NCBI RefSeq assembly: GCF_014196425.1
Contig: NZ_JACIDR010000007.1
Span: 62,001-126,000 of the forward strand
DNA from: Hansschlegelia beijingensis
GTDB lineage: Bacteria; Pseudomonadota; Alphaproteobacteria; Rhizobiales; Methylopilaceae
Length of the DNA: 64,000 nt
Direction of reading: 5' to 3'
The position numbers were made by a program, and so were the translations under genes. The notes beneath the pieces were generated by a model. The model searched no databases and was not told the origin of the DNA. It saw only the letters and a program-made list of their open reading frames with translations. Shown here piece by piece: positions 8,028 through 22,595 of the stretch. Numbering within the stretch: the first letter of the stretch is position 1; each line of letters begins with the position of its first letter.

Positions 8028-9112
8028 CACCCTGCCTGGCCCCGCTCGAGAAGCGCCCGCAGCCGCGCCGCGAGCAGCCGCCGCTCGTCATGTGGGGCGG
8101 GCTGCGCGCGGTTGAGCGCGCCGTCGAACAGCCGTCCCCAGCCGCGGGCGACGATCAGAGCGTGCATGTCGTCGAGATCGCGGCGCGGCGAGACCCAGCC
8201 ATCGGCGAGGATCTTGCGGCAGAGCGCCGCGAGCGGCCCCGAGGACCGCGCGCGGCGCGCGATCGCGGCGCGCAGCCGGCTCTTGAGCGGCGGCGCCTTA
8301 GGCGCGAGCGGGTAGATGGTGAGCGGCTTTCCGGCCGCGACGGCCTCGGCGATCATCGACTCGCTCTCTCCTGTCACGACCAAGAGATCGGCCTGCGCAA
8401 GACACGCGTCATAGGGGCTCGGAGCGTCCGCCGACCAGGCGATGACGCGCGCCGCGGGCGCGGCGGCCGCCATGCGTTCGGCCGCGCCGGCGGGCGTGCG
8501 GCGGCTGGTCAAGATCGCCAGCCCGCCCCGGAGCGCGTCGACGGCCGCCGCCACCTCGGCCGCCATGCGGGCGGCCTGGTCGAGCGTCATCTCATGCTGC
8601 CCCGTCGGGCCGCCGACCAGCAGCACGACGCGCGGCGGCCGCAGGCCGGCCAGCGGATCGGGCTCGCGGCGGGCGGCGTCGAGCGCCTCAGGGTCGATCC
8701 GCGTCAGCGGCAGGTCGAGCTGCAGCAGTTTGGGGTGCGGCGGCTGGACCAGATAGCCCGGCCGCACGACCAGATCCGCATAGGCCTCGGGCGTGCGTCG
8801 GCCGATCAACGCCACGGCCGCGCCGGCCTCGCGCCGCAGCCAGGCGGCCACCGGGGCGACGCGGCCTCCGGCGGCGATCACCAGATCGGGATAGGGCGGC
8901 GCGATCGCGGCCCTGGAGGCGTCGTCCAGCGTCGAGAGCGTGGGACCGAGCCCGCCCACCGTGCGCGCCTTGCGTCTCCGGAAACGCAGCGGCTTCTCCA
9001 CGGCCGGCAGGCCGAGCGCGCGCGCCGCGCCGAGCGCCTGCGTGCGGTTTCCGGGTCGGTCGTCGGTGAGCAGCCAGATCGTCGGGCCGGTCCGCTGTTG
9101 GCCTTGGGGCAT
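8027..9112 (-). CDS. ELM1/GtrOC1-family putative nucleotide-sugar glycosyltransferase
   Basis: 361 residues from an ATG at 9112; the longer ORF to 9196 adds an arginine-rich, low-quality N-terminus. The start region TIWLLTDDRPGNRTQALGAA is the characteristic opening of the ELM1 family (formerly DUF1022), bacterial relatives of the plant mitochondrial-fission protein ELM1. The fold is GT-B-like: VVLLVGGPTGQHEM in the second domain, then LLVVTGESESMIAEAVAAGKP, the usual GT-B nucleotide-binding region. In proteobacteria this family is often near LPS or capsule genes. It shares a 106-bp divergent promoter region (9197-9303 is free) with the ABC exporter of the sphingolipid locus and is coupled to the GT42-like gene. 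Confidence 0.78.
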   Translation of the reverse strand: MPQGQQRTGPTIWLLTDDRPGNRTQALGAARALGLPAVEKPLRFRRRKARTVGGLGPTLSTLDDASRAAIAPPYPDLVIAAGGRVAPVAAWLRREAGAAVALIGRRTPEAYADLVVRPGYLVQPPHPKLLQLDLPLTRIDPEALDAARREPDPLAGLRPPRVVLLVGGPTGQHEMTLDQAARMAAEVAAAVDALRGGLAILTSRRTPAGAAERMAAAAPAARVIAWSADAPSPYDACLAQADLLVVTGESESMIAEAVAAGKPLTIYPLAPKAPPLKSRLRAAIARRARSSGPLAALCRKILADGWVSPRRDLDDMHALIVARGWGRLFDGALNRAQPAPHDERRLLAARLRALLERGQAG

Positions 9113-9303: not shown

Positions 9304-11118
9304 ATGTCGATCGCCTCTGAGCACGATACGCCGTTGAAACAGCGGAAGGCGCCGCTTTACACGCTGCGCCGCATCGTGACCGTCATCCCGCTCCGGCGGA
9401 CGCTCGCCATCCTGGGCTGCCTGGTGTTCGCCGGCGTCGCGGAGGGCCTCGGCGTCGCGAGCCTGCTGCCGCTGCTGTCGGCCATCGGGCCGGAGGGCGG
9501 CGCTCCCAAGGGCGTCAGCGGCCAGATCGTCCAGATCATCGAAGGCATGGGGCTGGAGCCCACGCTCGGCTTCTTCCTGTCGCTGCTGGTCGGCGGCATG
9601 GTGATCAAGGCCACCCTGACGCTGCTCGCGATGTACCGGGTGGGCCAGGCGACCGCCGACGTCGCCAACAAGATGCGCCTCGACCTGATCGACGCGCTGC
9701 TGGCCGCCCGCTGGGGCTATTACGTGCGCCAGCCGGTCGGCCGCTTCTCGGCCGCGCTCAGCGCCGAGTCGAGCCAGGCCGGCGAGGCCTACAACGCCGC
9801 CGCCCGGTTTTCGGCGGAGGCCATCCAGGTCGCGACCTATGTGGTGGTCGCCACGCTGATCTCGTGGCGGCTCGGCCTGCTGTCGCTCGGCATCGGCCTG
9901 CTGATGGTGCTGACGCTCAACCGCTTCATCACCATCGCCAAGCGCACCGCGCGCAAGCAGAAGCGGCACATCCGCGCGCTGGTCGCCGGCCTCGTCGACC
10001 TGCTGGTCGGCATCAAGCCCATGAAGGCGATGGGCCGCCACGCGCGGTTCCAGGCGCTGTTCGAACGGGACGCCAACCGGATCCGCCGCGCGCAGGTGAA
10101 GCAGTCCTTCGCCCGCGAGGCCAACAAGGCGCTGCAGGAGCCGTTCCTGGCCATCTTCCTGGCCGGCACGATCTATGTCGCCGTCGGCCTGTGGGGCATG
10201 TCGCCCGGCCATGTGCTCGTCATGGCGCTGGTGCTCGCCCGCGTCGTGACCTCGATCGGCAAGGCCCAGCAGGCGCTGCAGGCGGTCCGGATCGCCCAGG
10301 CGGCGTTCTCGGCGATCGCCAACATGATCGACGGCGCGCGCGCCATGCGCGAATCCGACTCCGGCGGCCTGCCGCCGAGCCTCGAGCGCGGCATCGCCTT
10401 CCGCGACGTGTCCTGCGCGATCGACGGCGCGCCGATCCTCAGCGACGTCAGCTTCGAGATCGGCAGGGGCTCCGTCACCACGCTGACCGGCCCCTCGGGC
10501 GCCGGCAAGACCACGACGGTCGACGTGCTGCTCGGGCTTCACGAGGCGAGCAGCGGGGTGGTGCTGATCGACGGCCAGCCGCTGCCGGAGATCGACCTCG
10601 CCGCGTGGCGGCGGATGATCGGCTACGTCCCGCAGGAGCTGATCCTGTTCCACGACACGCTGCGCGCCAACCTGACGCTCGGCAATCCCGACTATTCGGA
10701 CGAGGACGTCGCGCGGGCGCTCGCCGGCGCGGGCGCGGCCGGCTTCGTCGCGACCCTTCCCGAGGGGCTCGACACGGTGCTGGGCGAGCGTGGCGCGCGG
10801 CTTTCGGGCGGACAGCGGCAGCGCATCGCGATCGCGCGCGCGCTGATCCACCGCCCGAAGCTGCTGATCCTCGACGAGGCCACCACGGCGCTCGACCCCG
10901 AAACCGAGGCCAACATCGTCCGCAACGTCATCGAGCTCGCGCGCTCGACCGGCCTCACCGTGCTGGCGATCTCCCATCAGCCCGCCTGGGAGCGGGCCTC
11001 CGACATGGTGGTCCGGCTGGAGCGCGGCCGGCTTGTCGCGATTGACAGGCCGGGCTCGGGATGGTCGACCGCCACCGACGACGAAGCCGCGCGCGCAGCC
11101 GCCGACGGAGTCGCCTGA
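9304..11118 (+). CDS. MsbA-like ABC exporter (fused membrane and ATPase domains)
   Basis: 604-residue half-transporter with an N-terminal six-helix exporter domain and a C-terminal ATPase. Walker A is GPSGAGKTTT (about 397-406), the signature is LSGGQRQR (about 500) and Walker B is LLILDEATTAL (about 519). The family moves lipids or oligosaccharides across the inner membrane as a homodimer. It is 35 bp upstream of, and co-directional with, the acyl-ACP synthetase gene. This makes it a candidate flippase for a sphingolipid or its glycosylated form; that role is inferred from context only. ATG at 9304 used. Confidence 0.88.
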   Translation: MSIASEHDTPLKQRKAPLYTLRRIVTVIPLRRTLAILGCLVFAGVAEGLGVASLLPLLSAIGPEGGAPKGVSGQIVQIIEGMGLEPTLGFFLSLLVGGMVIKATLTLLAMYRVGQATADVANKMRLDLIDALLAARWGYYVRQPVGRFSAALSAESSQAGEAYNAAARFSAEAIQVATYVVVATLISWRLGLLSLGIGLLMVLTLNRFITIAKRTARKQKRHIRALVAGLVDLLVGIKPMKAMGRHARFQALFERDANRIRRAQVKQSFAREANKALQEPFLAIFLAGTIYVAVGLWGMSPGHVLVMALVLARVVTSIGKAQQALQAVRIAQAAFSAIANMIDGARAMRESDSGGLPPSLERGIAFRDVSCAIDGAPILSDVSFEIGRGSVTTLTGPSGAGKTTTVDVLLGLHEASSGVVLIDGQPLPEIDLAAWRRMIGYVPQELILFHDTLRANLTLGNPDYSDEDVARALAGAGAAGFVATLPEGLDTVLGERGARLSGGQRQRIAIARALIHRPKLLILDEATTALDPETEANIVRNVIELARSTGLTVLAISHQPAWERASDMVVRLERGRLVAIDRPGSGWSTATDDEAARAAADGVA

Positions 11119-11153
11119 CGGCGGCCGCAGCGGTCTCTCAACGAGGATTTCGA

Positions 11154-12872
11154 ATGACTGATCTCGCCGAGCCCATCGTCTCGCCGGCGACCGCGGCGGA
11201 CGCGGACCACACCATCCTTGACGCGCTCGAGGCGGCCGCGCTGAGCCCGGAAGGCTTCAACTTCCATTCCGGCAAGGGCGTGCTGACCACCGCCCTGCCC
11301 TATTCGCAGCTCGTCGCCGACGCGCAGGCGCTCGCCGCCCGGCTGCTCGGCGCGGGGCTGAAGCCCGGCGACTGCGTCGCGCTGATCGCCGACACTGAGC
11401 CGGATTTCGTGCGGCTGTTCTTCGCCTGCAGCTACGCCCGCATCGTGCCGGCGCCGATGCCGCTGCCGATGGCGTTCGGCGGGCGCGAGGCCTATCTGGC
11501 GCATGTCCGCCGGATGATCGAATGCGCCGACGCGCACGCCGCTTTCGCCCCGGCGGCGATGCGGGACTGGCTGGTCGAGGCCGCCGCCGGCCTGCCGCTC
11601 GCGCTGGTCGGGACGATCGAGGACCTGGCCGCGGTGGAGCCGGCGCCGGGCGAGCTGTCGAGGCCCGCGCCCGACGACTTCGCCTATCTGCAGTTCTCCT
11701 CCGGCAGCACGCGCTTCCCGAAGGGCATCTGCGTCACCCACCGCGCCCTGATGGCGAACGCGACCGGCATCAGCCGGCACGGGCTGGTGGTGCGCGAGGG
11801 CGACCGCTGCGTCTCCTGGCTGCCGTTCTACCATGACATGGGCCTGGTCGGATTCATGCTGACCCCGATCGTGGCGGGGCTCACGGTCGACTACCTCGCC
11901 ACCCGCGACTTCGCCCGCCGGCCGCTGCTGTGGCTCGAACTGATCGCCCGCCACAAGGCGACGATCTCCTACAGCCCGAGCTTCGGCTTCGAGCTCAGCG
12001 CGCAGCGCGCCGCGACCCTCGATCTCGGCGATCTCGACGTCTCGTCCTGGCGCTGCGCCGGCATCGGCGGCGACATGATCCGACCGCACGTGCTGCGGCG
12101 CTTCGCGGACCGGTTCCGCCGCCACGGCTTCGACCTCGACCGCTACGTGGCGAGCTACGGCATGGCCGAGGCCACGCTGGCGCTGACGTTCGCGCCGCTC
12201 GGCGAGGGCCTCAAGGCCGAGACCGTCGACCTCGACCGGCTGGAGAGCGAGGGCGTCGCGACGGCCCCGGGGGCCGAGGGCGCCCGCTCGCGCGAGTTCG
12301 TGCTGTGCGGCCCCGCGCTGCCGGACCATGAGATCGAGGTGCGCTCGCCCGACGGCGCCGCCCTGCCGGAACGGCGCGTGGGCCGCGTCTTCGCGCGCGG
12401 CCCGAGCCTGATGCGCGAGTATTTCCGCGAACCGGAGGCGACCGCCGAGACCATCTCGCCGGACGGCTGGCTCGACACCGGCGACCTCGGCTATTTCGCC
12501 GACGGCCAGCTGGTGATCACCGGGCGCGCCAAGGACCTGATTCTGGTGAACGGCCGCAACGTCTGGCCGCAGGATCTGGAATGGACCGTCGAGGCCGAGA
12601 TCGAAGGCGTGCGAAGCGGCGACGTCGCGGTGTTCTCGGTCGACTCCCAGGACGGCGAGGAGGTCGTGGCGCTGGTCCAGTGCCGGACTTCGGCCGAGGA
12701 GGCGCGCGCCGCGCTGGTCGAGCAGGTCGGCACGCTGCTCCGGCTGCGGTTCGGCACGCCTGTGACGGTGCGGCTCGTGGGCGCTCACGCGCTGCCGGTC
12801 ACCTCCTCCGGAAAGCTCAGCCGCAGCCGCGCGCGGGCGCTCTATCTCTCGCTGCAGGCCGACGGCGCCTGA
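11154..12872 (+). CDS. Fatty acyl-AMP ligase / acyl-ACP synthetase (AasR-like)
   Basis: 572-residue member of the adenylate-forming superfamily that activates fatty acids with ATP and loads them onto an acyl carrier protein. The P-loop is SSGSTRFPKG (about 182-191), the A5-like motif is ASYGMAEATLALTF, the hinge region DTGDLGYF is present, and the A10 lysine is in SSGKLSR (about residue 550). The start at 11154 gives MTDLAEP; the longer ORF reading back to 11061 lies inside the upstream gene. In Caulobacter an acyl-ACP synthetase of this kind (AasR) is one of the genes needed for ceramide synthesis, and here it is near acp and spt. It has a stem-loop downstream (12952-12974). Confidence 0.88.
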   Translation: MTDLAEPIVSPATAADADHTILDALEAAALSPEGFNFHSGKGVLTTALPYSQLVADAQALAARLLGAGLKPGDCVALIADTEPDFVRLFFACSYARIVPAPMPLPMAFGGREAYLAHVRRMIECADAHAAFAPAAMRDWLVEAAAGLPLALVGTIEDLAAVEPAPGELSRPAPDDFAYLQFSSGSTRFPKGICVTHRALMANATGISRHGLVVREGDRCVSWLPFYHDMGLVGFMLTPIVAGLTVDYLATRDFARRPLLWLELIARHKATISYSPSFGFELSAQRAATLDLGDLDVSSWRCAGIGGDMIRPHVLRRFADRFRRHGFDLDRYVASYGMAEATLALTFAPLGEGLKAETVDLDRLESEGVATAPGAEGARSREFVLCGPALPDHEIEVRSPDGAALPERRVGRVFARGPSLMREYFREPEATAETISPDGWLDTGDLGYFADGQLVITGRAKDLILVNGRNVWPQDLEWTVEAEIEGVRSGDVAVFSVDSQDGEEVVALVQCRTSAEEARAALVEQVGTLLRLRFGTPVTVRLVGAHALPVTSSGKLSRSRARALYLSLQADGA

Positions 12873-12951
12873 ACACATTCGGCGCCGGAATGTTTCAATC
12901 GCGCGCATTCCGCCGCCGCCATCCGTACCTGTGGCACTGACGAGCGTCGCC

Positions 12952-12974
12952 CGACGCCTTCTCCCAAGGCGTCG
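12952..12974 (+). terminator. Stem-loop after the acyl-ACP synthetase gene
   Basis: A perfect 9-bp inverted repeat (CGACGCCTT / AAGGCGTCG) separated by the 5-nt loop CTCCC lies 80 bp after the synthetase stop codon. It has no T-run, so it is at best a weak or Rho-assisted terminator or a 3'-end stabiliser. Confidence 0.45.
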
Positions 12975-12989
12975 ACGGCGCGGCGGGCT

Positions 12990-13010
12990 CTGACCGAACG
13001 GTTCGGTCAG
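12990..13010. promoter_or_regulatory. Perfect 21-bp palindrome, TetR-operator-like
   Basis: CTGACCGAAC-G-GTTCGGTCAG has perfect 10-bp arms about one base. The GACCGAAC/GTTCGGTC core is typical of operators bound by TetR-family repressors, which bind such palindromes as dimers. It lies in the 465-bp gene-free gap between the acyl-ACP synthetase gene and acp-spt, 328 bp upstream of the acp start. No TetR gene is present in the window, so the regulator would be encoded elsewhere. Assignment as an operator is inference from symmetry and composition. Confidence 0.5.
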
Positions 13011-13337
13011 TCCGCCGAATTCGCGAGAAATTTGAGGCGATTGCGATGAAGCGAGATGAGCCGGCGGTCAGCCGCAGCTTCGCCGTTTCGCGCCAGAACG
13101 GTCCGAAGGTCTGCCGCAGGAGCGATTACGACATTTCGGCAACACTTCGCGCGCATCCTCCCAGGGCTCCTTTCGGGGGTCGCGCGATTCGTGTTTCAGT
13201 CGGGATATCAGCCTGTAACATCCTGCATTGATTAGTGTTTCCCCAACGGCTTCTTGAACTTTACAGCGCCGCGCCGGGTTTCTAGTTTGCCGCCGTCGAC
13301 CTAGGTCTGCAGTGGCGAGTCTGCCAAGGCCTAAAGA
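13011..13337 (+). other. Intergenic leader upstream of acp-spt, locally AT-richer
   Basis: This is the rest of the 465-bp gap (12873-13337). Composition becomes visibly more AT-rich towards acp (for example TGATTAGTGTTTCC and TTGAACTTTACAG near 13230-13265), as expected of a promoter region. A TTGAAC hexamer near 13254 could be a -35 element but I cannot pair it convincingly with a -10. A 61-codon ORF (13046-13231) is present but has no ribosome site or recognisable sequence. In Caulobacter the ceramide reductase gene cerR sits at the equivalent position; no remnant of it is visible. Confidence 0.4.
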
Positions 13338-13589
13338 ATGACGGAAGACAGAGTCGCCCTCATTTCCGAGATTTCGGAAGTACTAGAGACCGTGACGAAT
13401 AAGGCGATCGAGCTGAAACCGGGCATGAATATCGTGAATGATCTCGGGTTGGACTCGATCGCAGTGATGAACTTTTGCATGGCATTGGAAGATCGGTTCG
13501 ACATCTCGATCCCGTTGCATGACATGGCCAGCGTCGTGACGGTCGACGACCTCGCGTCGACGATCGAGACGCTGCGGAGTAATGCGTGA
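13338..13589 (+). CDS. Acyl carrier protein of the sphingolipid locus (AcpR-like)
   Basis: 83-residue acidic four-helix carrier protein. The 4'-phosphopantetheine site is DLGLDSIAVM with the modified serine at residue 40. Unlike housekeeping AcpP (which has DSLD), it reads DSIA, typical of dedicated carrier proteins. Its stop codon overlaps the spt start region (TGATG), so acp and spt are translationally coupled. With the neighbouring acyl-ACP synthetase it should deliver acyl groups to serine palmitoyltransferase, as proposed for Caulobacter. Codon use is less GC-extreme than the neighbours in the first 100 bp. Confidence 0.9.
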   Translation: MTEDRVALISEISEVLETVTNKAIELKPGMNIVNDLGLDSIAVMNFCMALEDRFDISIPLHDMASVVTVDDLASTIETLRSNA

Positions 13590-14902
13590 TGGCTATTCTC
13601 GATAAGTTCTCCGGCCTCGCTGCCCGCTACGAGCAGCTGAAGGCGAGCGGCGGCGATCCCTTCTCGATCCAGTTCGACGACATCATCTCGTCCGTCGAGG
13701 GCGTGGTGAAGGGCAAGCGCACGCTGCTGTTCGGCACCAACAACTATCTGGGCCTGACGTTCGACCCCATCTCGATGGAGCGGTCGATCGACGCCATCCG
13801 CAAGCACGGCACCGGCACCACCGGCTCGCGCATCGCGAACGGCAGCTACCGCGAGCACGAGAAGCTGGAGCGCGAGCTCGCCGACTTCTACGGCCATGAG
13901 CACTGCATGGTGTTCTCGACCGGCTACCAGGCGAACCTCGCGATGATCTCGACGCTGGTCGGCAAGGACGACCACCTGATCATCGACGCCGACAGCCACG
14001 CCTCGATCTATGACGCCTCGCGCCTCGGCCACGCGCCGGTGGTGCGCTTCCGGCACAACAATCCCGAGGATCTGGCGAAGCGGCTGGCCCGTCTGAAGGA
14101 CCAGCCCGGCGAGAAGCTGATCGTGGTCGAGGGCATCTATTCGATGCTCGGCGACACCGCGCCGCTGAAGGAGTTCGTCGACGTCAAGCGCGAGTTCGGC
14201 GCCTACCTGATGGTCGACGAGGCGCATTCGATGGGCGTGCTCGGCCAGCGCGGCCGCGGCCTCGCCGAGCGCGAGGGCGTCGAGGAAGACGTCGACTTCG
14301 TGGTCGGCACCTTCTCCAAGAGCCTGGCGAGCGTCGGCGGCTTCTGCGTCTCCAGCGTCGAGGGCTTCGACATCCTGCGGCTCGCCGCCCGCCCCTACAT
14401 GTTCACGGCCTCGCTGCCGCCGGCGATCATCGCCTCGACGCTCTCCGCGCTCGAGACGCTGCGCAACGAGCCGCAGCGGCGCGCCAAGCTGCGGGCCAAT
14501 TCGCGCCGCTTCTACAACGGCCTGAAGGACGCCGGCTTCACGGTCGGCCCGGAGGCGAACCCGATCGTCGCGGTCATCCTCAACGATCCGGCGGTCGCCA
14601 CCATGTTCTGGAAACGGCTCGTGGACGAGGGCATGTACCTCAACCTCGCGCTGCCGCCCGCCACGCCGAACTCCTCGGCCTTCCTGCGCTCGAGCGTGAG
14701 CGCGGCGCACACCGAGGAGCACATCGACTTCGCGATCGCGCTGATGACCCGCGTCGGCCGCGAGTTCGGCATCCTTCCGGAGGCTCCGGAATACTCCAAC
14801 GTCACCCCGTTCCCGCGCGTCAGCGCAGAACGCCTTTCCGCCAGAGCCGCCACAGCGCCGGCCCGGCGGCGAGCAGCGGATGTCGGCGCTGGAATGGCGT
14901 GA
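13589..14902 (+). CDS. spt: Serine palmitoyltransferase (alpha-oxoamine synthase family)
   Basis: 437-residue PLP enzyme that condenses serine with an acyl thioester to 3-ketosphinganine, the first step of sphingolipid synthesis. The PLP lysine is K244 in GTFSKSLASVGG; VDEAHSMG (D210) contacts the pyridine nitrogen and the histidine in DADSHAS (H137) stacks on the ring. The sequence alone would also fit other alpha-oxoamine synthases (KBL, AONS), but a coupled acp, an acyl-ACP synthetase and a linked ceramide synthase make Spt much the best call. Start: ATG at 13589, overlapping the acp stop by 1 base; a GTG at 13586 is an alternative. The last 28 or so codons are antisense to the end of the next gene (83-bp tail-to-tail overlap) and look less family-like. 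Confidence 0.9.
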   Translation: MAILDKFSGLAARYEQLKASGGDPFSIQFDDIISSVEGVVKGKRTLLFGTNNYLGLTFDPISMERSIDAIRKHGTGTTGSRIANGSYREHEKLERELADFYGHEHCMVFSTGYQANLAMISTLVGKDDHLIIDADSHASIYDASRLGHAPVVRFRHNNPEDLAKRLARLKDQPGEKLIVVEGIYSMLGDTAPLKEFVDVKREFGAYLMVDEAHSMGVLGQRGRGLAEREGVEEDVDFVVGTFSKSLASVGGFCVSSVEGFDILRLAARPYMFTASLPPAIIASTLSALETLRNEPQRRAKLRANSRRFYNGLKDAGFTVGPEANPIVAVILNDPAVATMFWKRLVDEGMYLNLALPPATPNSSAFLRSSVSAAHTEEHIDFAIALMTRVGREFGILPEAPEYSNVTPFPRVSAERLSARAATAPARRRAADVGAGMA

Positions 14903-15758
14903 CCTCCACGCGGTGGCCGGAGTGCCGCTCGATCTTCCAGGCGAGGTAGTCCACCCCGCCTGAAAACGTGAAGGCGGCTTTCGCGAGCCGCGCCAGATTC
15001 AGGGGCTTGGCGATCCGCTTGCGGCGGCGCCAGGCCCTTTCTGCATCAGCCCGCTGCGAGGCCGTCAGCGCCGGCGCGAGGCCGCCCTCGGGCGTCTGCG
15101 CGAAAGCGAGCCCATCGGCCGCCCAGGCGAGCGGCAGCACCGCGGCGTAGCGCTCCGGCGCGCTGTCGACGATCGAGCCGGCGCGGCCGGTCCCCTCGAC
15201 GCGCAGCTCCGAGGCGTAGGTGCGCCGGAACAGCTCCCGCCAGAACTCCTCGCCCCGGGCCTCGGCGGGGCCGAGCCGCGCCGCCCACCAGGCCGCGCCG
15301 CGCACCGCGCCCGCGACCGCCCGGGCGGCCTGCGACCACGCTTCGGCGTCCCGCGCATCCACGATCGCCACGGGCTGCGCGAAGCGCGCCCAGATGGTGG
15401 TGTCGAGGCTCTGCGCCCGCGCATGGTCGCGGAACTGCGCGAGCGTCATGATCGCGATCTTGGCGCGCAGCCTGGCGTCGCCGGCGTCATGCTCGGCGTA
15501 TTCGATGTTCGGCGGCAGCATGCGCGCCCCGGCCCGCGCGGCGCGCCCCCAGTCCCAGGCGGCGAGATCGTCGAGCAGGACATAGAAGTCGAGCAGGCCG
15601 TCGGTCTCGCCTGTGCGCAGCGCCGAGCCATAGAACAGGACGGCGACGACGCCGCCGCGCCCGCGCGCCGCGATCCCGGACGCAAAGGCGCGGATCGCGG
15701 GCGCGACCGGGCGGTTCAGTTCGTCCTGGATGAAAGCGACCAGCGGCGTCTCGCTCAT
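14820..15758 (-). CDS. Tam41-like nucleotidyltransferase-fold protein of the ceramide phosphoglycerate block
   Basis: 312 residues. A nucleotidyltransferase-type motif is visible: AVLFYGSALRTG (GS at 44-45) followed by LLDFYVLLDD (D57). The spacing, the following LPPNIEY and the LRAKIAIMTLAQF then FAQPVAIV segments resemble mitochondrial Tam41, a CDP-diacylglycerol synthase unrelated to CdsA. The second metal-binding Asp of a normal DxD is Tyr59 here. The ATG at 15758 has a strong AGGAGG ribosome site inside the tail of the kinase gene; a GTG at 15779 is an alternative. It is third in a coupled leftward operon with the CDP-alcohol phosphotransferase and the kinase. I recall Caulobacter cpgABC as three such adjacent genes next to spt, but cannot assign which letter this is. 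Function inferred. Confidence 0.6.
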   Translation of the reverse strand: MSETPLVAFIQDELNRPVAPAIRAFASGIAARGRGGVVAVLFYGSALRTGETDGLLDFYVLLDDLAAWDWGRAARAGARMLPPNIEYAEHDAGDARLRAKIAIMTLAQFRDHARAQSLDTTIWARFAQPVAIVDARDAEAWSQAARAVAGAVRGAAWWAARLGPAEARGEEFWRELFRRTYASELRVEGTGRAGSIVDSAPERYAAVLPLAWAADGLAFAQTPEGGLAPALTASQRADAERAWRRRKRIAKPLNLARLAKAAFTFSGGVDYLAWKIERHSGHRVEVTPFQRRHPLLAAGPALWRLWRKGVLR

Positions 15759-15775
15759 GGCCGCCTCCTGCTCCG

Positions 15776-16711
15776 TCACAGCCTGACGAATGTCAGCGGC
15801 GGGCCGGCGCGGAGCTCGACCCTCCCGTCGGGCCCCGGGGCGAACCTGTCGCCGTCGATGATGAAGGGATCGCGCAGACCGAGGCGGATCAGGTCGGCGC
15901 GTTCGCTGCGCCAGCCTTCGGCGGCCGCCGACGCGCGCGGCCGCCCGAGTCCGGCGGTCACGAGATTGCGGCCGAGCCGTCTCGGAGGCGCGGCCACCTC
16001 GGTGACCGCGATCACGCCGGCGCCCTGCCCCCAGAACGGCCAGAGGCCGAGCACCCAGCGCCGCAGCGATGTCGCCAGCAGCGCGAAACTGTCATGGGCG
16101 ACCTCTGGCCCGCCGTCGAGCGCGAGCGACAGCGGCACGCCGCGCCGCCACGCCTCCCGGTCCTTCCCGAACAGGGCCGCGGAGCCCGACGCCACGACGC
16201 CGAGCGCGACGCCGAGCTTCTGCGCGAAACCGCGGTCGTGAACCCGCTCGTCGACCAGCCGGGTGGCGCGCTCGAAGGCGCCGAGGCCGAACACGAAGCC
16301 GTGGACGGAGCGGCCGTCGAACGAGGCTACGATCGGGCGGCGCACGCTCGTCGCGAGCGGCGAGCCGCCTCTCAGGGCGGCCGCGAGCCTCTCGGCCGCC
16401 TCCGGCCCGCGCCCGGCCCCGCCGACATCGGCCGCGGCGACGTTGGTCTTGCCGTTCGGCAGCAGCGCGATCTGCGGGAGGGCTTCGCCGAAGGCGGGCG
16501 GGAGCGCGCTCATCACGTCGCGCAGCGTGCCGTCGCCGCCGTCGACCGCGAGCGTCGTCACGCCGGCGGCCGCGAACCGGCGCATCACCTCGGGATAGTC
16601 GGCGGGGGACTCCGGCGCCTCGAACAGCGCGTCGCGGGGCGGCGTGGCGCGCGCGCCTGCGTTGCGGTTGCGCCAGCTCCGGCCGTTCGCGACGATCCCG
16701 AGCCGGCTCAC
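15776..16711 (-). CDS. cpgB: DAGK-family lipid kinase, probable ceramide kinase (CpgB-like)
   Basis: 311 residues from a GTG at 16711 that overlaps the stop of the upstream gene (GTGA). The diacylglycerol-kinase catalytic motif GGDGT is at 58-62. The next family motif, normally PLGTGNDFAR, is replaced by LLPNGKTNVAA (83-93), and the C-terminal beta-sandwich is recognisable. In Caulobacter a DAGK-like protein of the spt locus, CpgB, phosphorylates ceramide on the way to ceramide phosphoglycerate; context here (spt, cerS, CDP-alcohol transferase) matches. Diacylglycerol or sphingoid base as substrate cannot be excluded. Its stop abuts the ribosome site of the next gene. Confidence 0.75.
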   Translation of the reverse strand: MSRLGIVANGRSWRNRNAGARATPPRDALFEAPESPADYPEVMRRFAAAGVTTLAVDGGDGTLRDVMSALPPAFGEALPQIALLPNGKTNVAAADVGGAGRGPEAAERLAAALRGGSPLATSVRRPIVASFDGRSVHGFVFGLGAFERATRLVDERVHDRGFAQKLGVALGVVASGSAALFGKDREAWRRGVPLSLALDGGPEVAHDSFALLATSLRRWVLGLWPFWGQGAGVIAVTEVAAPPRRLGRNLVTAGLGRPRASAAAEGWRSERADLIRLGLRDPFIIDGDRFAPGPDGRVELRAGPPLTFVRL

Positions 16712-17838
16712 GCCGACAGCCAGGAGGTCACCGGCCCCTTGCGGCTGGCGATGATCCCCTGCACGACCTGCGCCGCGTGGACGACGAGCGACAGCACGAT
16801 CCACCACAGCACCACGATCATGCCGAGGTCCGGCCGGCCGAACAGCGTGAAAACGGTGAGGATCACGAGGTTCGGGTTGCGGCGCGCGGTGATCAGCCGG
16901 AAGAAGCTGTCGAACGGCCGCCAGACATGCATGTGCATGCCGAACAGCCGCAGGAACGCGCCCTCCAGAAGGCGCTGGACCACATAGCCGCCGACGATGA
17001 CGCCGACCGCAAGCCCGGGGTGCTCCAGGGGCATGCCGACCGCCGGAAGGCCGACGATCCAGGCCCACCACCAGAATGGCGGGTGGATGAGATCGATGCC
17101 GTGGTCGAGCACGTCGCCGAACTTGGAGTAGGTCATGGTGACGCGGGCGAGCTTGCCGTCGACCGTGTCCAGGAAGGTCATGATCCACGCCGCGACCAGC
17201 CCCCAGCCATAGTGGCCGGTCCAGAACAGCCAGAGCGCGACGAACACCAGCAGCAGGCTGACCGTCGTCACCTGGTTCGGCGTGACGCCGAGCACGGCGC
17301 ACCATTTGGTCACGATCCGGGCCGGCAGCGGCCAGACATATTTGGTGATGACGTCGGTCACCCCCTTGTAGGAGCCGGCGAAGCTGCGCGCCTCGAAATC
17401 GGCCGCCGTCTGCGGGTTCAGGGGCGCCACATAGGCGATCTCGCGCTTGCGGAGCTTGCGGTTGTAGGAGCCCGCGAGTCCCTCGGAATCCAGCGCTTCC
17501 GTGCCTGCCGGGACGCGCCCTTCCGCAAGCGCGGCGGCGGCCGCCGCGGCCTCCGCTCCCGCGACATTGGCCGCGACCGCGACGCCGCCCGAAACGAGCG
17601 TCGCGCCCGGGCGCTCGGCCAGCGCCTCGACCAGTCGCTGCTCATAGGCGTGATCGAGCCTGAACAGCAGCGTGCGGCCGCCCGCGGGCGCCACCGGGGT
17701 GTCCCGCACGTCGGTCACGCCGACGCGCTTCAGCTGCCTTCTGAGACGCTCCGCGGCGCTCATTCCCCAGATGCGGACCTCAGAGGCGCCGACGAGAAGG
17801 GCGGTCGGCGCCGAGGCCGGGCGTGTCGCATCCGTCAT
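16708..17838 (-). CDS. CDP-alcohol phosphatidyltransferase with N-terminal nucleotidyltransferase-like domain
   Basis: 376 residues. The C-terminal membrane domain has a perfect CDP-alcohol phosphotransferase motif: D224xxDG...AR...G241xxxD245xxxD249, followed by several hydrophobic helices. The N-terminal 150 residues resemble a nucleotidyltransferase domain (LLVGASEVRIWGMSAAERLR, then LLFRLDHAYEQRLVEAL), but the G-rich NTP loop is eroded, so it may be structural or regulatory. Bifunctional fusions of this layout exist, for example inositol-phosphate cytidylyltransferase/DIPP synthase. Here it probably transfers phosphoglycerate from CDP-glycerate to a ceramide lipid, which is inference from the locus. 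First gene of the coupled leftward block; ATG at 17838. Confidence 0.82.
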   Translation of the reverse strand: MTDATRPASAPTALLVGASEVRIWGMSAAERLRRQLKRVGVTDVRDTPVAPAGGRTLLFRLDHAYEQRLVEALAERPGATLVSGGVAVAANVAGAEAAAAAAALAEGRVPAGTEALDSEGLAGSYNRKLRKREIAYVAPLNPQTAADFEARSFAGSYKGVTDVITKYVWPLPARIVTKWCAVLGVTPNQVTTVSLLLVFVALWLFWTGHYGWGLVAAWIMTFLDTVDGKLARVTMTYSKFGDVLDHGIDLIHPPFWWWAWIVGLPAVGMPLEHPGLAVGVIVGGYVVQRLLEGAFLRLFGMHMHVWRPFDSFFRLITARRNPNLVILTVFTLFGRPDLGMIVVLWWIVLSLVVHAAQVVQGIIASRKGPVTSWLSA

Positions 17839-17940
17839 TTGTGCTTGCAGTTCCTGCGCAGGCCACACTATGGGCGTGTCGTTTAGCGACAAACTTCCGG
17901 CCTTTCCAGCGCGGCGGCGCCGATCGTCACAGGACCCCAG
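17839..17940. promoter_or_regulatory. Divergent promoter region between the two cpg/cerS transcription units
   Basis: The 102 bp between the leftward CDP-alcohol transferase operon and the rightward HIT-lptFG-cerS operon. It contains a perfect 10-bp palindrome CCTGCGCAGG (17853-17862) and an inverted repeat TGTCG-TTTAG-CGACA (17877-17891). Either may be an operator allowing joint control of both units. No match to the GACCGAAC palindrome upstream of acp-spt is seen. Confidence 0.4.
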
Positions 17941-18378
17941 ATGGCCAACAAGACGATGGAGAAGTTCGGCCACCCCGCCTCCGTGGTCGCGGAGGTGGGC
18001 GCATGGACAATCCAGGTCCGCCCGAAACAGCTGGCGCTCGGCTCGCTCGTCCTTATATGCCGCGAGCCTGCCGGGGCGTTCTCCCAGCTCTCCCCGCAGG
18101 CCTTCGTGGATCTCGGCGCGGCTGTCGCGGAGATCGAGCGCGTCCTGAAGGCGTTCGTGCGGTATGAGCGCATCAACTACCTGATGCTCATGATGGTCGA
18201 TCCCGACGTCCATTTTCACGTGATCCCGCGCTACGAGGGCGAGCGCTCGTTCGGCGGCGCGACCTTCGGGGACGCCGGATGGCCCGGGCCGCCCGATCTT
18301 GCGCGCGGCGTCGACCTCGACCCCGATGCGCTCGCCGCCCTGACGGCCGAGCTCCGCTCGCGCTGGGCCGCGGCCTGA
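17941..18378 (+). CDS. HIT-family protein with altered HIT motif
   Basis: 145 residues, histidine-triad fold (nucleotidyl hydrolase or transferase superfamily). The motif normally H-h-H-h-H-h-h reads DVHFHVI (about 89-95): the last two histidines, including the nucleophile position, are kept, while the first is Asp. It starts the coupled rightward operon; its TGA overlaps the ATG of the LptF-like gene by 1 base. Genes of this family sit in the equivalent Caulobacter locus as far as I recall. A role in processing a CDP- or NMP-linked intermediate of head-group synthesis is plausible but unproven. Confidence 0.8.
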   Translation: MANKTMEKFGHPASVVAEVGAWTIQVRPKQLALGSLVLICREPAGAFSQLSPQAFVDLGAAVAEIERVLKAFVRYERINYLMLMMVDPDVHFHVIPRYEGERSFGGATFGDAGWPGPPDLARGVDLDPDALAALTAELRSRWAAA

Positions 18379-19604
18379 TGGCGGACGCTCGCGCGAGCGG
18401 CGGCTGGTTCCGGCTGCGCCTGCTCGACCGCTACGTCCTCGCCCTGACGCTGCGGCCCATGCTGATGTCGCTCGGCGTCGTGCTGACGGCGCTGCTGCTC
18501 GAACGGGTGCTGCGCCTGGTCGACATGCTGGCGACCGCCGGCGCGCCGATCATCCTGGTGGTCTCGCTCTCCACGAACCTGATCCCGCATTATCTCGGCT
18601 TCGCGCTGCCGGCGGGCTTCGCGCTCGGCATCTTCAGCGCCGTCTCGCGGCTGAGCCTCGGGGCCGAGCTCGAGGCGATGCTCGCCTCCGGGGTCTCGAT
18701 CCAGTCCGTGCTGCGGCCGCTGGTCGCGCTGGGCTGCATCCTGTCGCTGATCAGCATCCTGGTGGTGGGATACCTGGCCCCCTATTGCCGCTACGCCTAT
18801 CGCGACATCATCAATTCGAGCGTCGCCTACGCGTGGCGCGCGCATGCGCCCGCGGCCACCTTCATCAGCGTCAAGGACGGGCTGACGATCACCGCCGACG
18901 AGGTCGACAAGACAGGCCGGCAGCTCAAGGGCGTGTTCATCCAGAACCGCGACCAGGGCGCGGACGTCGTCACCTCCTCGGTCGCCGGCACGCTCGAGCT
19001 GACGCCCGACAAGACCCAGATCCAGCTCAAGCTGCACAACGGCGTCGTGGTGCGCGACTACGGCGCGGCGCGGCCGAGCACGCTGCGCTTCCAGGAGCTC
19101 GTGCTCGACAAGAAGTTCGACCTGCAGGCCCCGCCGTTCCGGCCGCGCGGCGGCAATGAGCGCGAGCTCACGTTGAGCGAGCTGTGGAGCGAGATGAACT
19201 CGCCGATGCCGTCCTCGCCGCTGAACGAGCTGCAGGCCGAGTTCCACTCGCGGCTGGCGCGCTCGCTGTCGCTGCCCTTCCTGCCGCTGCTGATCGTGCC
19301 GCTCAGCATGACGATGCGGCGCAACGCGCGGGTCGGCAACGCGGCCGCCTCGGCGGTGCTGATGGTGCTGTTCCACAACGCGCTGCAGATCGGCCAGACC
19401 TTCGCGCACAAGGGCATTGGCTGGGCGCCGCTCGATTGCTGGGCGCCGTTCTTCGTCTATGTGGCCTTCGCGCTCTGGCTCTACCGGACCAGCACGGACC
19501 GGCCGGGCGACACCGTCGTGTCCCGCGCGCTCGACAGGGTGAGACGGGTCATCGAAAGCCTGACGCGCCGTGTCGGCGCGCGGCTGCAGGCGGCCAAGAG
19601 CTGA
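18378..19604 (+). CDS. LptF/YjgP-like permease of the sphingolipid operon
   Basis: 408 residues with the LptF/LptG layout: N-terminal helices (DRYVLALTLRPMLMSLGVVL), a periplasmic beta-jellyroll-like middle (about 160-285) and C-terminal helices (LPLLIVPLSMTMRRNARVG). LptF and LptG form the inner-membrane channel that extracts LPS together with the LptB2 ATPase. The pair here lies between a HIT gene and ceramide synthase, not beside the usual alphaproteobacterial lptD-surA-pdxA neighbours. It is therefore likely a second, dedicated pair for sphingolipid. ATG at 18378 overlaps the HIT stop by 1 base and the TGA overlaps the next ATG by 1 base. Confidence 0.85.
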   Translation: MADARASGGWFRLRLLDRYVLALTLRPMLMSLGVVLTALLLERVLRLVDMLATAGAPIILVVSLSTNLIPHYLGFALPAGFALGIFSAVSRLSLGAELEAMLASGVSIQSVLRPLVALGCILSLISILVVGYLAPYCRYAYRDIINSSVAYAWRAHAPAATFISVKDGLTITADEVDKTGRQLKGVFIQNRDQGADVVTSSVAGTLELTPDKTQIQLKLHNGVVVRDYGAARPSTLRFQELVLDKKFDLQAPPFRPRGGNERELTLSELWSEMNSPMPSSPLNELQAEFHSRLARSLSLPFLPLLIVPLSMTMRRNARVGNAAASAVLMVLFHNALQIGQTFAHKGIGWAPLDCWAPFFVYVAFALWLYRTSTDRPGDTVVSRALDRVRRVIESLTRRVGARLQAAKS

Positions 19605-20737
19605 TGCGCCTCACCCGCTATCTGAGCGTGTCGCTCGTCCGGATGGCGCTCACCGCGACCTTCATCCTGGCGTTCATCGCGCAGATCCTCGATCTGGTCG
19701 ACAACGCCGGCGACATCCTCGACCAGGGCGACGGCCTCTACGGCATCCTGCGCTACGTCGTGCTGCGAATGCCGACGCTGCTGACGCGCTCGCTGCCGCT
19801 CGGCGCGCTGGTCGGCGCGACGCTCGTTCTGCTGCTGCTCGCCCGCAACAGCGAGATCGTGGCGATGCGGTCAGCGGGGCGCAGCACCGCCCAGCTGTTC
19901 CTGTCGATGCTGCCCGGCGCGCTTGTGCTGGTGCTGTTCCAGTCGACGCTGATCGACGTGGTCGCGCCGCACACCGAGGCGCGGCTCGCGATCCTGCTCA
20001 CGCAGCGCATCGACCGCCAGGCCGACGAGGCGTCGAAGAACCCCAAGGCCACATGGCTGCGGATCGGCGACGCGGTGGTCTCCTTCGACCGGGTCAGCGA
20101 GCGCGGCAGGCGGCTGAGGTCGGTGCGCATCTACGATCGCGACCAGAACAAGGTCGTGACCGCGCGCACCACAGCGGCCGAGGCGCGCTACCGCAACGGC
20201 AGATGGACGCTCAAAGACGCCGAGCGGGTTCTCTGGACGCGCGAGAACTTCAACGAGCGCACGCCCGCCGACGGGGTGTGGGAGACGAGCCTCACGCCCG
20301 ACGACGTGCTGTCGTCGCTCACCCCCGAAAGCCGCGTCTCGCTGGCGGCGGCGCGCGCGGTGCTGGCCGGCGAGATGACGCCCAATGCGCCGCTGCCGTT
20401 CTACCAGACGCTCATCGAGCGGGTGTATGCGGGGCCCCTCGGCGTCATCGTGATGGTGCTGCTCGCCATGCCGGCGGCGCTCGTGAACTGGCGCGACGCC
20501 CGCACCGGGCGGCGCGGCGTGCTGGCCATGACGGCCGGACTGATCTTCCTGCTCTCCGACGGGTTGCTGACCACGCTCGCCCTGACCGGCGTCGTCAGCC
20601 CCGCCATCGGCGCGTGGTCGGCGCTGGTGGTGTTCGCGATCTACGGCGCCTACCGGATCTTCCGCATCGACGGCGGCTGGCCGCCGCGAGCGACCAGGGC
20701 GCAACCGGCGAAGCGCCTGGCGGAGGCCAAGAATTGA
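19604..20737 (+). CDS. LptG/YjgQ-like permease of the sphingolipid operon
   Basis: 377 residues. The N-terminus MRLTRYLSVSLVRMALTATF and the early RSLPLGALVGATLVLLLLARNSEIVAMRSAG region match the LptG/LptF coupling-helix area (E and MRSAG being conserved where LptB docks). A periplasmic jellyroll-like domain (about 120-285) and C-terminal helices follow. Paired with the gene upstream it should form an LptFG-type heterodimer; an LptB-type ATPase must come from elsewhere, since none is in the operon. Coupled on both sides: 1-base overlap upstream, 4-base TTGA overlap downstream. Confidence 0.85.
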   Translation: MRLTRYLSVSLVRMALTATFILAFIAQILDLVDNAGDILDQGDGLYGILRYVVLRMPTLLTRSLPLGALVGATLVLLLLARNSEIVAMRSAGRSTAQLFLSMLPGALVLVLFQSTLIDVVAPHTEARLAILLTQRIDRQADEASKNPKATWLRIGDAVVSFDRVSERGRRLRSVRIYDRDQNKVVTARTTAAEARYRNGRWTLKDAERVLWTRENFNERTPADGVWETSLTPDDVLSSLTPESRVSLAAARAVLAGEMTPNAPLPFYQTLIERVYAGPLGVIVMVLLAMPAALVNWRDARTGRRGVLAMTAGLIFLLSDGLLTTLALTGVVSPAIGAWSALVVFAIYGAYRIFRIDGGWPPRATRAQPAKRLAEAKN

Positions 20738-21861
20738 GCTCGATCGACGTTCGCCCTGTCGTCTCGAAGCGCGACTTCGAGCAGTTCATCGCCCTGCCGG
20801 GCCGCCTGCACGCCAACGACCCGACCTATGTGGCGCCGCTCAAGATGGAGCGACGCGAGGCGCTCTCGCCGAAGAAGAACCCGCTGTTCAACTACATGGA
20901 CTGGGCCTTCTGGCTGGCGTGGCGCGACGGCAAGCCGGTCGGACGGATCAGCGCGCAGGCCGACCGCCGCACCGGCGACGTCGGCCATTTCGGCATGATC
21001 GCGGCGGAGGACGACCCGGCCGTCTTCAGCGCCCTGTTCCGCGAGGTGGAGGCGTTTCACCGCGCGCGCGGCAAGGCCGAGATCCAAGGCCCGTTCAACC
21101 TCAGCATCAACGAGGAATCCGGCCTTCTGGTCGACGGCTTCGACACGCCGCCGATGCTGCTGATGCCGCACGACCTGCCCTATGTCGGACCGCGCGTGGA
21201 GGCCGAGGGCTACGCCAAGGCGATGGACCTCTACGCCTATCTGCACGACGTCGACACGCCGTTTCCGCCCGCCGTGGAGCGCATCCTGGCGCGTCCCACC
21301 CCGCCGGAGCTCACCGTGCGGCACATGGACTGGAGCCGCTATGACGACGAGCTGCGGGCCATCGTCGAAATCTTCAACGACGCCTGGGCTGACAATTGGG
21401 GCTTCGTGCCGCTCGGCGAGGACGAACTCCAGCACCTCGCCAAGTCGCTCAAGCTGCTGATCGACGAGCGGCTTGTCTGGATCGTGGAGATGTCGGGCAA
21501 GCCCGCCGCCTTCGGGGTGGCGCTGCCGAATCTGAACGAGATCATCCGCGACCTCGACGGCGAACTGCTGCCCTTCGGCTGGGCCAAGCTGCTGTGGCGG
21601 CTGAAGCGGCGGACCTACAGGTCCGGCCGCGTCGCCCTGATGGGCGTGCGCCGGGAGTACCACCGCAGCTTCCTGGGCAAGACGATGCCGCTCTACATCT
21701 TCCAGAAGTTCCGCGAGGAGGGGCGCGTCCGGAAGGTGAAGTGGGTGGAGATGTCCTGGGTTCTCGAGAGCAACACGCCGATGCGCCACATCGGCGAGGC
21801 GCTCGGCGGCGGCAGGGCCTACAAGACCTATCGCGTCTACTCGAAGAAGCTCACGGCGTGA
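20734..21861 (+). CDS. cerS: Bacterial ceramide synthase (GNAT-like N-acyltransferase)
   Basis: 375 residues from a TTG at 20734 that overlaps the previous stop (TTGA); GGAGG lies about 9 nt upstream. The family pattern is clear: VAPLKMERREALSPKKNPLFNY, VGRISAQADR, a long IQGPFNLSINEESGLLVDGF run and MGVRREYHRS. Proteins of this GNAT-like family were shown in Caulobacter to be the bacterial ceramide synthase (bCerS), N-acylating the long-chain base; the fold is unrelated to eukaryotic ceramide synthases. The general family is broader, so the call depends also on linkage to spt, acp and the cpg genes. Cytosolic or membrane-peripheral; no membrane segments seen. Confidence 0.85.
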   Translation: MSSIDVRPVVSKRDFEQFIALPGRLHANDPTYVAPLKMERREALSPKKNPLFNYMDWAFWLAWRDGKPVGRISAQADRRTGDVGHFGMIAAEDDPAVFSALFREVEAFHRARGKAEIQGPFNLSINEESGLLVDGFDTPPMLLMPHDLPYVGPRVEAEGYAKAMDLYAYLHDVDTPFPPAVERILARPTPPELTVRHMDWSRYDDELRAIVEIFNDAWADNWGFVPLGEDELQHLAKSLKLLIDERLVWIVEMSGKPAAFGVALPNLNEIIRDLDGELLPFGWAKLLWRLKRRTYRSGRVALMGVRREYHRSFLGKTMPLYIFQKFREEGRVRKVKWVEMSWVLESNTPMRHIGEALGGGRAYKTYRVYSKKLTA

Positions 21862-22595
21862 CCACGGCCCTGGTGCTCGCCGGCGTCCGGCCCGGCGGCG
21901 ACCCGCTCGCCGAATTCGCCGGCGTCAGCCACAAGGCGCTGATCCCGATCGGCGGCGTCGCGATGCTCGACCGGGTCGTCGACGCCCTGCGGGCGAGCGG
22001 CCGGATCGACCGCATCGTGGTGTCGATCGACCGCCCGGAGCTCGTCACGCGGCCGGACGTCGAGGTGCTGCGCTCGGGGCAGACGCTGAGCGCCAGCGTC
22101 TCGGACGCGCTCGAGAAGCTCGGCGCGCCGCTGTTCGTGACGACCGCCGACCATGCGCTGCTCGAGCCCGAATGGGTCGGCTACTTCCTTGACCACCTGC
22201 CCGAGACCACGGTCGCGGCCGGGCTGGCGCGCTCCGAGAACGTCATGGCCGCGACGCCGGACACCAAGCGCACCTTCCTGCGCTTCTCAGACGGCGCCTT
22301 CTCGGGCTGCAACATGTTCTTCCTGCGCGACGCCTCGGCGGTCGAGGCTGTGCGCCGCTGGCGCGAGGTCGAGGCGCTCCGCAAGAAGCCGCTCAAGATG
22401 CTGGTGCGGCTCGGGCCCGGCGCGATCCTGTCCTACCTGCTCGGCCGCCTCACCCTCGCCCGTGCGGCGGCGGCCGCCGGACGGGTGCTGGGCGCGAGCG
22501 CGGGCGTGGTGGAGCTGCCGTTCGGCCGCGCCGCGGTCGACGTCGACAAGCCGGCCGACCTGATCCTGGTGCGCCGGATCGTCGAAGGCGGCTGA
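21858..22595 (+). CDS. cpgD: MobA-like NTP transferase, probable phosphoglycerate cytidylyltransferase (CpgD-like)
   Basis: 245 residues from a GTG at 21858, coupled to cerS by a 4-base GTGA overlap. The N-terminus ALVLAGVRPGGDPLAEF...KALIPIGG (K26) is a nucleotidyltransferase NTP-binding loop; LFVTTADHALL carries the metal-binding Asp, and VDVDKPADL near the C-terminus holds the second. In Caulobacter the nucleotidyltransferase of this locus (CCNA_01210, CpgD) was reported to make CDP-glycerate from CTP and 3-phosphoglycerate for ceramide diphosphoglycerate. Position next to cerS and family agree. It is the last gene of the operon; the next gene is convergent, 3 bp away. Confidence 0.75.
   Translation: MTTALVLAGVRPGGDPLAEFAGVSHKALIPIGGVAMLDRVVDALRASGRIDRIVVSIDRPELVTRPDVEVLRSGQTLSASVSDALEKLGAPLFVTTADHALLEPEWVGYFLDHLPETTVAAGLARSENVMAATPDTKRTFLRFSDGAFSGCNMFFLRDASAVEAVRRWREVEALRKKPLKMLVRLGPGAILSYLLGRLTLARAAAAAGRVLGASAGVVELPFGRAAVDVDKPADLILVRRIVEGG

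Follow-up and report, generated by a model that had tools for sequence, protein, structure and literature searches.

What lipid does the twelve-gene locus at positions 9304–22595 of a 64-kb stretch of the Hansschlegelia beijingensis genome make, and has this lipid taken the place of lipopolysaccharide (LPS)? The whole stretch is called the window below, and coordinates without a handle follow its numbering; its genome is designated G000, and other G and L handles denote the genomes and loci compared. All twelve genes listed there by the original prediction were present, most of them with domain or NCBIfam matches, and together they represent a Caulobacter-type ceramide phosphoglycerate locus. 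The locus probably makes ceramide phosphoglycerate (CPG) and diphosphoglycerate (CPG2), and in a clade of Hansschlegelia-like genomes this sphingolipid has probably replaced LPS and leaves via the retained Lpt machine with LptF2-LptG2 encoded in the locus. LpxB, canonical LpxC and canonical LptF-LptG are absent from G000, and LptA, LptB and LptD are retained. Since key LPS genes are gone and parts of the transport machine are kept, the sphingolipid probably took over both the place of LPS and its export route.

Lipid A genes

LpxB, LpxC, LptD and CpgD were searched for in 61 genomes, including 13 of the same genus, 5 others of the same family and 7 Spt-positive genomes of the same order. The genome-wide search of the lipid A pathway covered LpxB and LpxC, with LpxA, LpxD, LpxH/I, LpxK and WaaA outside it; on these two genes, G000 had no LpxB and had LpxC only as a divergent paralogue. 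LpxB (PF02684) was present in 44 of the 61 genomes and had no match in 8 of the 13 same-genus genomes, G000 among them. It was also missing from all seven same-order Spt genomes and otherwise only from G026 and G033 (84% and 88% complete), the two LpxB-less genomes without the locus. Thus, LpxB was missing in 15 of 20 genomes with the locus vs. 2 of 41 without it (Fisher p = 2.4e-8, a statistic that ignores relatedness); G011 was counted as having the locus, and G036, with a sub-threshold Spt-like match of 467 bits, as lacking it.

Canonical LpxC (PF03331, 323–327 bits) occurred within the genus only in G003, G004, G006, G009, and G011, being missing from the same eight genomes as LpxB. A divergent LpxC paralogue (181–238 bits) was the sole LpxC match in six of these eight and was also found in the five sisters; G002 and G005 had no LpxC match at all. 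In G000 this deacetylase-like paralogue lies on contig C6 (L315:9791-10609), flanked by an efflux-type MFS gene and one that is SodC-like, and it occurs in 11 of the 13 genus genomes, 6 of them without LpxB. Six of the seven same-order Spt genomes were also without LpxC. The seventh, G023, lacks LpxB yet keeps LpxC and an extra LptFG, so its LpxB status is uncertain.

The Lpt machine

LptF2 (18378–19604, plus strand; LptF_LptG 202 bits) and LptG2 (19604–20737, plus strand; 205 bits) are the sole LptF and LptG found in G000. A search with LptF_LptG (PF03739) in 21 genomes gave two matches each in G000 and six further same-genus genomes, both at the sphingolipid locus, and four broken pieces, all at the locus, in G007. 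The five genomes that kept LpxB and LpxC (G003, G004, G006, G009, and G011) had two LptFG pairs each. LptF2 and LptG2 scored under the NCBIfam cut-offs for LptF (191 vs. 230) and LptG (219 vs. 240), whereas the canonical LptF and LptG of G004 passed them with 275 and 273 bits. In quick trees, the window LptF2 fell into a 20-row clade of sphingolipid-locus proteins (support 97) apart from canonical LptF, and LptG2 grouped with 14 further LptGs of such loci (91), separate from canonical LptG (100). Trees and cut-offs thus separate the two types, and LptF2-LptG2 was rejected as a relocated canonical pair.

The former site of the canonical pair could be compared directly. In G004 (Methylopila turkensis), the genes follow one another as holC-pepA-lptF-lptG-lptD-surA-pdxA-ksgA; G013, a Spt-less genome of the same family, has the same order up to lptD. 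In all four LpxB-less genomes examined (G000, G005, G012, and G002), lptF and lptG are missing from the pepA-lptD interval, and the order is otherwise as in G004. Just 5' of lptD there is a stretch resembling the LptG C-terminus, with E values of 8e-4 (G000), 1e-6 (G005), 1e-3 (G012) and 0.18 (G002); when each gap was compared with 1000 dinucleotide shuffles, 0, 0, 9, and 11 of them, respectively, were as good. This looks like a decayed lptG tail, clear in two genomes and weak in two.

Other parts of the machine are kept. LptD (PF04453) was detected in 59 of the 61 genomes, including 13/13 of the genus and all 15 LpxB-less genomes with the Spt locus. The LptA and LptB of G000 passed their NCBIfam cut-offs (77 vs. 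72 and 371 vs. 240).

Ceramide synthesis and the missing CerR

Spt (13589–14902, plus strand) scored 676 bits on the NCBIfam serine palmitoyltransferase model NF047599 (cut-off 500), and 336 and 325 bits on the models of BioF and 2-amino-3-ketobutyrate CoA ligase (KBL), both under the cut-offs of those models. Among solved structures, serine palmitoyltransferases ranked on top (2x8u, 441 bits), and the best KBL reached 225 bits. KBL and 8-amino-7-oxononanoate synthase were both rejected as identities by the cut-offs and the structure ranking, and the protein is a true serine palmitoyltransferase. It is accompanied by its own acyl carrier protein AcpR immediately 5' of spt (13338–13589, plus strand; PP-binding 45.5 bits) and acyl-ACP synthetase AasR, a fatty acyl-AMP ligase (11154–12872, plus strand; NF006624 826 bits, cut-off 600). 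The GNAT-type ceramide synthase CerS (20734–21861, plus strand; Acetyltransf_1) has homologues in other Spt loci, with 36–55% identity to Spt-adjoining CerS-like genes in loci L017–L042 where found.

In many loci outside the genus, CerR sits between AasR and AcpR or Spt. At this position the window has a 465-bp gap (12873–13337), in which no CerR relic above chance was found, and a decayed CerR was therefore rejected. Searches with tblastn revealed no CerR, CC_1158-type or CpgD-type gene in the 64-kb window. A CerR profile built from ten proteins, with two rows from G053 and G054, gave 334–450 bits in six of the seven same-order Spt genomes and 177 bits in the seventh, a partial match at a contig edge. 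The 13 same-genus genomes reached only 115–129 bits among the best 36 candidates per genome, a level also seen in Spt-less genomes, so that nothing rose above a widespread paralogue. When all 79 candidates of G000 were scored, the best had 125 bits and the second 63 bits, and no CerR was recognised. Complete CerR matches lay at 255–450 bits, and partial ones at contig edges started from 177.

In a class-wide sample, Spt was detected at 1e-120 in 48 of 367 genomes, 43 of which had CerR of at least 228 bits; the next match anywhere had 160 bits (best 6 candidates per genome). The five Spt genomes without a CerR-level match were G000, three of family f70 (G086, G217, and G315) and G286, whose draft is contaminated and has its Spt at the edge of a contig. 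No candidate exceeded 125 bits when all those of the five genomes were scored. Family f70, which we guess to be Acetobacteraceae, shares with the window Spt accompanied by AcpR and AasR. It differs in that G315 has another SDR (short-chain dehydrogenase/reductase; Epimerase/3Beta_HSD) directly 3' of spt (L235:6391-7341), a candidate alternative ketoreductase. This protein was discarded as the replacement reductase of the genus after giving no match at 1e-8 in 21 genomes, including the 13 of the genus, in a search run without a positive control.

The aasR-acpR gap also contains a perfect 10-bp inverted repeat, CTGACCGAAC-G-GTTCGGTCAG, at 12990–13010. Its 19-bp core is exact in the same gap of G005, G002, G001, and G007, all LpxB-less, and absent from every other fetched locus. 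We take this palindrome to be a possible repressor operator.

Head group genes

Orthology to the Caulobacter genes is judged here from domains, from position and from comparable loci in organisms other than Caulobacter. CpgA and CpgB have domain matches, and each of the three genes CpgA, CpgB and CpgC is backed by position and homologues. The CpgB-type ceramide kinase (15776–16711, minus strand) carries DAGK_cat, and the CpgA-type CDP-alcohol phosphotransferase (16708–17838, minus strand) has CDP-OH_P_transf at residues 186–268 behind an N-terminal extension of ~180 aa. The CpgC-type nucleotidyltransferase-like protein (14820–15758, minus strand; 312 aa) shows 37–76% identity to CpgC-position genes of 10 other loci, across which YGS and D57 are invariant. 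It had no Pfam match at 1e-3, a Pfam profile search gave no nucleotidyltransferase family, and the top match of a PDB profile search was a nucleotidyltransferase with an E value of only 0.26; the likeness to Tam41 proposed earlier was not confirmed by either search.

The last gene (21858–22595, plus strand) had been taken for a CpgD-like cytidylyltransferase. It encodes instead a CofC-like NTP transferase (NTP_transf_3; F420_cofC 29.6 bits, below cut-off) and is therefore of the CC_1153 type (PMC11324152); it was rejected as CpgD, and a separate CpgD-type gene is located elsewhere in the genome. This unlinked gene (contig C2 of G000, near 293 kb; 248 aa) matches by sequence the structure 4jd0, named in the CpgD paper, which points to a CpgD-type enzyme. 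It is 49% identical to the gene adjoining aasR in Roseomonas harenae, and the translated match extends upstream across a stop preceding the gene's own start. The CpgD-type gene was found in 13/13 same-genus genomes, 0/5 others of the family, and 7/7 same-order Spt-positive genomes; at 1e-10, 23 of the 61 genomes had a match, the rest being weaker relatives.

Locus layout and neighbouring observations

The locus opens with an ABC exporter of the CC_1166 type (9304–11118, plus strand; ABC_tran and ABC_membrane), a candidate sphingolipid flippase kept in 12/12 same-genus loci reaching that far. The protein at 17941–18378 (plus strand) retains its earlier label, HIT-like; homologues of it are found in comparable loci elsewhere, and it gave no Pfam match at 1e-3. 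The predicted coupling by overlaps of 1–4 bases held for six junctions, 1-base at AcpR/Spt, HIT/LptF2, and LptF2/LptG2 and 4-base at LptG2/CerS, CerS/NTP transferase, and CpgB/CpgA. The convergent genes of Spt and CpgC share 83 bases. By layout, there are four units rather than a single operon: ABC-AasR, AcpR-Spt, CpgA-B-C on the minus strand, and HIT-LptF2-LptG2-CerS-NTP transferase. The order ABC-AasR-AcpR-Spt, reversed CpgC-CpgB-CpgA and HIT-LptF2-LptG2-CerS-NTP transferase is common to all 13 same-genus genomes, being complete in 12. The locus of G011 begins at CpgC because the contig starts there, and a lack of the locus in this genome was rejected. As comparable orders also occur in Solimonas, Nevskia, and other Alphaproteobacteria, the arrangement is not due to chance.

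A Mito_fiss_ELM1 gene (8027–9112) adjoins the locus, and ELM1-like matches were seen near Spt in the distant loci L024, L025, L027, L033, L165, and L170. In some loci, a fatty acid hydroxylase follows LptG2 or stands beside CerS (L238:18576-19358, PF04116; similar-looking open reading frames by eye in L233, L234, and L239); none was seen at the window locus. AasR forms the end of open frames of 1943 and 2158 aa in L233:10694-16525 and L234:2861-9337, within stretches of 30% GC, and no Pfam family matched their long N-terminal parts. Locus L033, from a metagenome-assembled genome (MAG) labelled Klebsiella pneumoniae, has Spt, CerS, and AasR; an uncultured gammaproteobacterium (L034) has an identical Spt, and the label is probably wrong.

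Origin of the locus

In a concatenated tree of nine locus proteins, the 8 LpxB-less genomes form one clade and the other 5 another, both with 100/100 support and with a warning for the long outgroup branch. A single clade fits a single loss, and lipid A was apparently lost once in the Hansschlegelia-like branch. Chelatococcus sambhunathii S14 (L012) falls inside this clade and is probably misnamed. The eight named same-genus records are Hansschlegelia plantiphila, H. quercus, H. zhihuaiae, Methylopila capsulata, M. turkensis, M. jiangsuensis, a Methylopila MAG, and the C. sambhunathii strain. By Spt, the closest named relatives of the window are H. plantiphila and H. quercus (90–91% identity), which bears out the assignment of a ceramide phosphoglycerate locus to a relative of the Hyphomicrobiales. 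In a quick tree, the Spts of the genus stood outside the clade of other same-order Spts (99). They lay closer to Nevskiaceae and to other Alphaproteobacteria, and support for their precise position was modest. As Spt above cut-off was found in 0/5 same-family genomes of other genera, the locus was likely gained by the ancestor of the genus, and lipid A was then lost in one branch.

Proposed mechanism and alternative explanations

By this scheme, AasR would charge AcpR, Spt would join acyl-AcpR with serine and CerS would N-acylate the product to ceramide. CpgB, CpgC, CpgA, the CC_1153-type enzyme and the unlinked CpgD would turn ceramide into CPG and CPG2; by analogy with the published biochemistry of the Caulobacter proteins, acyl-AcpR would yield 3-oxo-sphinganine, CpgB ceramide-1-phosphate and CpgD CDP-glycerate. 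Lipid A synthesis would have been lost in the Hansschlegelia-like clade, where canonical lptFG is gone. LptB with LptF2-LptG2 would then extract CPG and CPG2, and LptA-LptD would deliver them to the outer leaflet, where they would take the place of LPS. The structure of the lipid, its transport and membrane position and the absence of LPS are thus predictions.

Several points weigh against this scheme. Sphingolipid and LPS status are predicted here from genes; the earlier claim that such a lipid can replace LPS function is borne out as far as a clade without the key lipid A genes LpxB and canonical LpxC goes, LPS absence itself being deduced. Searches of ~150 kb from contig C6 of G000 and of 240 kb from G012, the only stretches covered, did not turn up the bamA-lpx cluster, and the LpxB gap of G023 may be an assembly gap. 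LptGs of sphingolipid loci do not form one clade against the canonical ones, the remaining locus LptGs being unplaced in the LptG tree. The gaps for the lptG relic were chosen after the match was seen, and two of the four are weak. The canonical order is rnd-lptC-lptA-lptB-rpoN; in G000 (interval at L149:7812-8003), G005, and G002, lptC is not between rnd and lptA, where the ~170–230 bp left are too little for it, the rest of the genomes being outside this search. An LpxC-like paralogue is kept in six of the eight LpxB-less genomes, and the residues that we take to form its metal site are conserved, including in G000. Together with unrecognised enzymes it could make an unusual LPS, with LptF2-LptG2 carrying LPS or both lipids, and the retained LptA, LptB, and LptD would suit such a divergent lipid A too. 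However, the paralogue coexists with canonical LpxC in 5/5 sisters and is missing from both G002 and G005, and is therefore not the step that was replaced; with LpxB unmatched in all eight and canonical lptFG gone, a divergent lipid A is very unlikely. An artefact of assembly gaps or contamination is largely refuted and hardly credible. Several genomes are drafts, and G007 is 88% complete with broken LptF2 and LptG2 frames, but G000, G002, G005, and G012 are all 100% complete, G012 being a single contig. Moreover, LpxB, LpxC, and lptFG agree genome by genome, sequence runs without a break across an empty lptFG site in four genomes, and the eight genomes form one clade.

The lipid itself raises further alternatives. 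Measured against Caulobacter, the ceramide step lacks CerR and is incomplete, which is also a point against the scheme. The 3-keto group could be reduced by an SDR paralogue next to cpgD, by an unrelated reductase, or be left unreduced. The paralogue, presumably NDUFA9-like, shares the strand of cpgD, starts the search list 88 bp upstream of that gene and is the best CerR-profile match in G000 (125 bits). It adjoins cpgD in G000, G005, and G002 and not in the other 10 genus genomes. Its nearest NCBIfam model is the ketoreductase OleD (57 bits, far under the cut-off of 580). CerR has been described as homologous to NDUFA9 (PMC11087976), but Spt-less genomes score alike (e.g., 140 bits in G014 and 145 bits in G060), and we regard reduction by this paralogue as possible but doubtful. 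It is a speculative and rather unlikely idea that the outer leaflet consists of CPG never reduced by CerR (3-oxo, or reduced by an unrelated enzyme) and exported by LptB-LptF2G2-LptA-LptD as a now dedicated sphingolipid exporter. The locus might also yield only ceramide or other phosphosphingolipids, given that the product is deduced from gene content; the whole genus retains the kinase, CpgC, CpgA, CC_1153-type and CpgD-type genes, however, which makes this improbable and favours CPG and CPG2 as the product.

Comparison with known systems

The Caulobacter crescentus region CC_1168-CC_1152 encodes LptC2, an unrelated gene, flippase, AasR, CerR, AcpR, Spt, CC_1161 (CpgC), CC_1160 (CpgB), CC_1159 (CpgA), the phosphoesterase CC_1158, CC_1157, LptF2, LptG2, CerS, the CofC-like CC_1153, and CC_1152 (PMC11324152), the last being CpgD (PMC12275187). 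The window shares with it aasR, acpR, spt, cpgC, cpgB, cpgA, lptF2, lptG2, cerS, a CC_1153-type gene, and an ABC exporter in one region (PMC11324152, PMC10331486, PMC12275187). Both genomes have a cpgD-type gene, unlinked in G000. In contrast to Caulobacter, G000 has no cerR, and the window has no CC_1158-type phosphoesterase and no recognised lptC2. Caulobacter makes LPS, and its viability without LPS depends partly on CPG2 (PMC12275187), whereas the window clade lacks LpxB and canonical LpxC; the Hansschlegelia-like lineage may therefore have undergone the same exchange in nature.

Sphingomonas and Sorangium cellulosum, cited in PMC11324152, likewise combine sphingolipid genes with absent or predicted absent LPS. 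Here the state is predicted from genes only, the order is a different one and phosphosphingolipid genes are present; in addition, same-genus sisters have the same locus alongside retained lipid A genes. In the open-licence literature, no title was found that deals with LPS loss or with sphingolipids in either Hansschlegelia or Methylopila.

The core synthetic enzymes are said to occur in all sphingolipid-making bacteria (PMC11087976); if the bacteria studied here make sphingolipid, their missing CerR is an exception. The route of bacterial sphingolipids to the outer membrane was stated as unknown in 2024 (PMC11324152). Lipid A genes were lost, apparently once, in a single genus here, and the LptFG of the locus is left as the sole LptFG beside LptA, LptB, and LptD, with the sisters as built-in controls. 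Sphingolipid transport, and whether an anionic sphingolipid has replaced LPS, thereby become directly testable in cultured strains, several of the named relatives being culture-collection strains.

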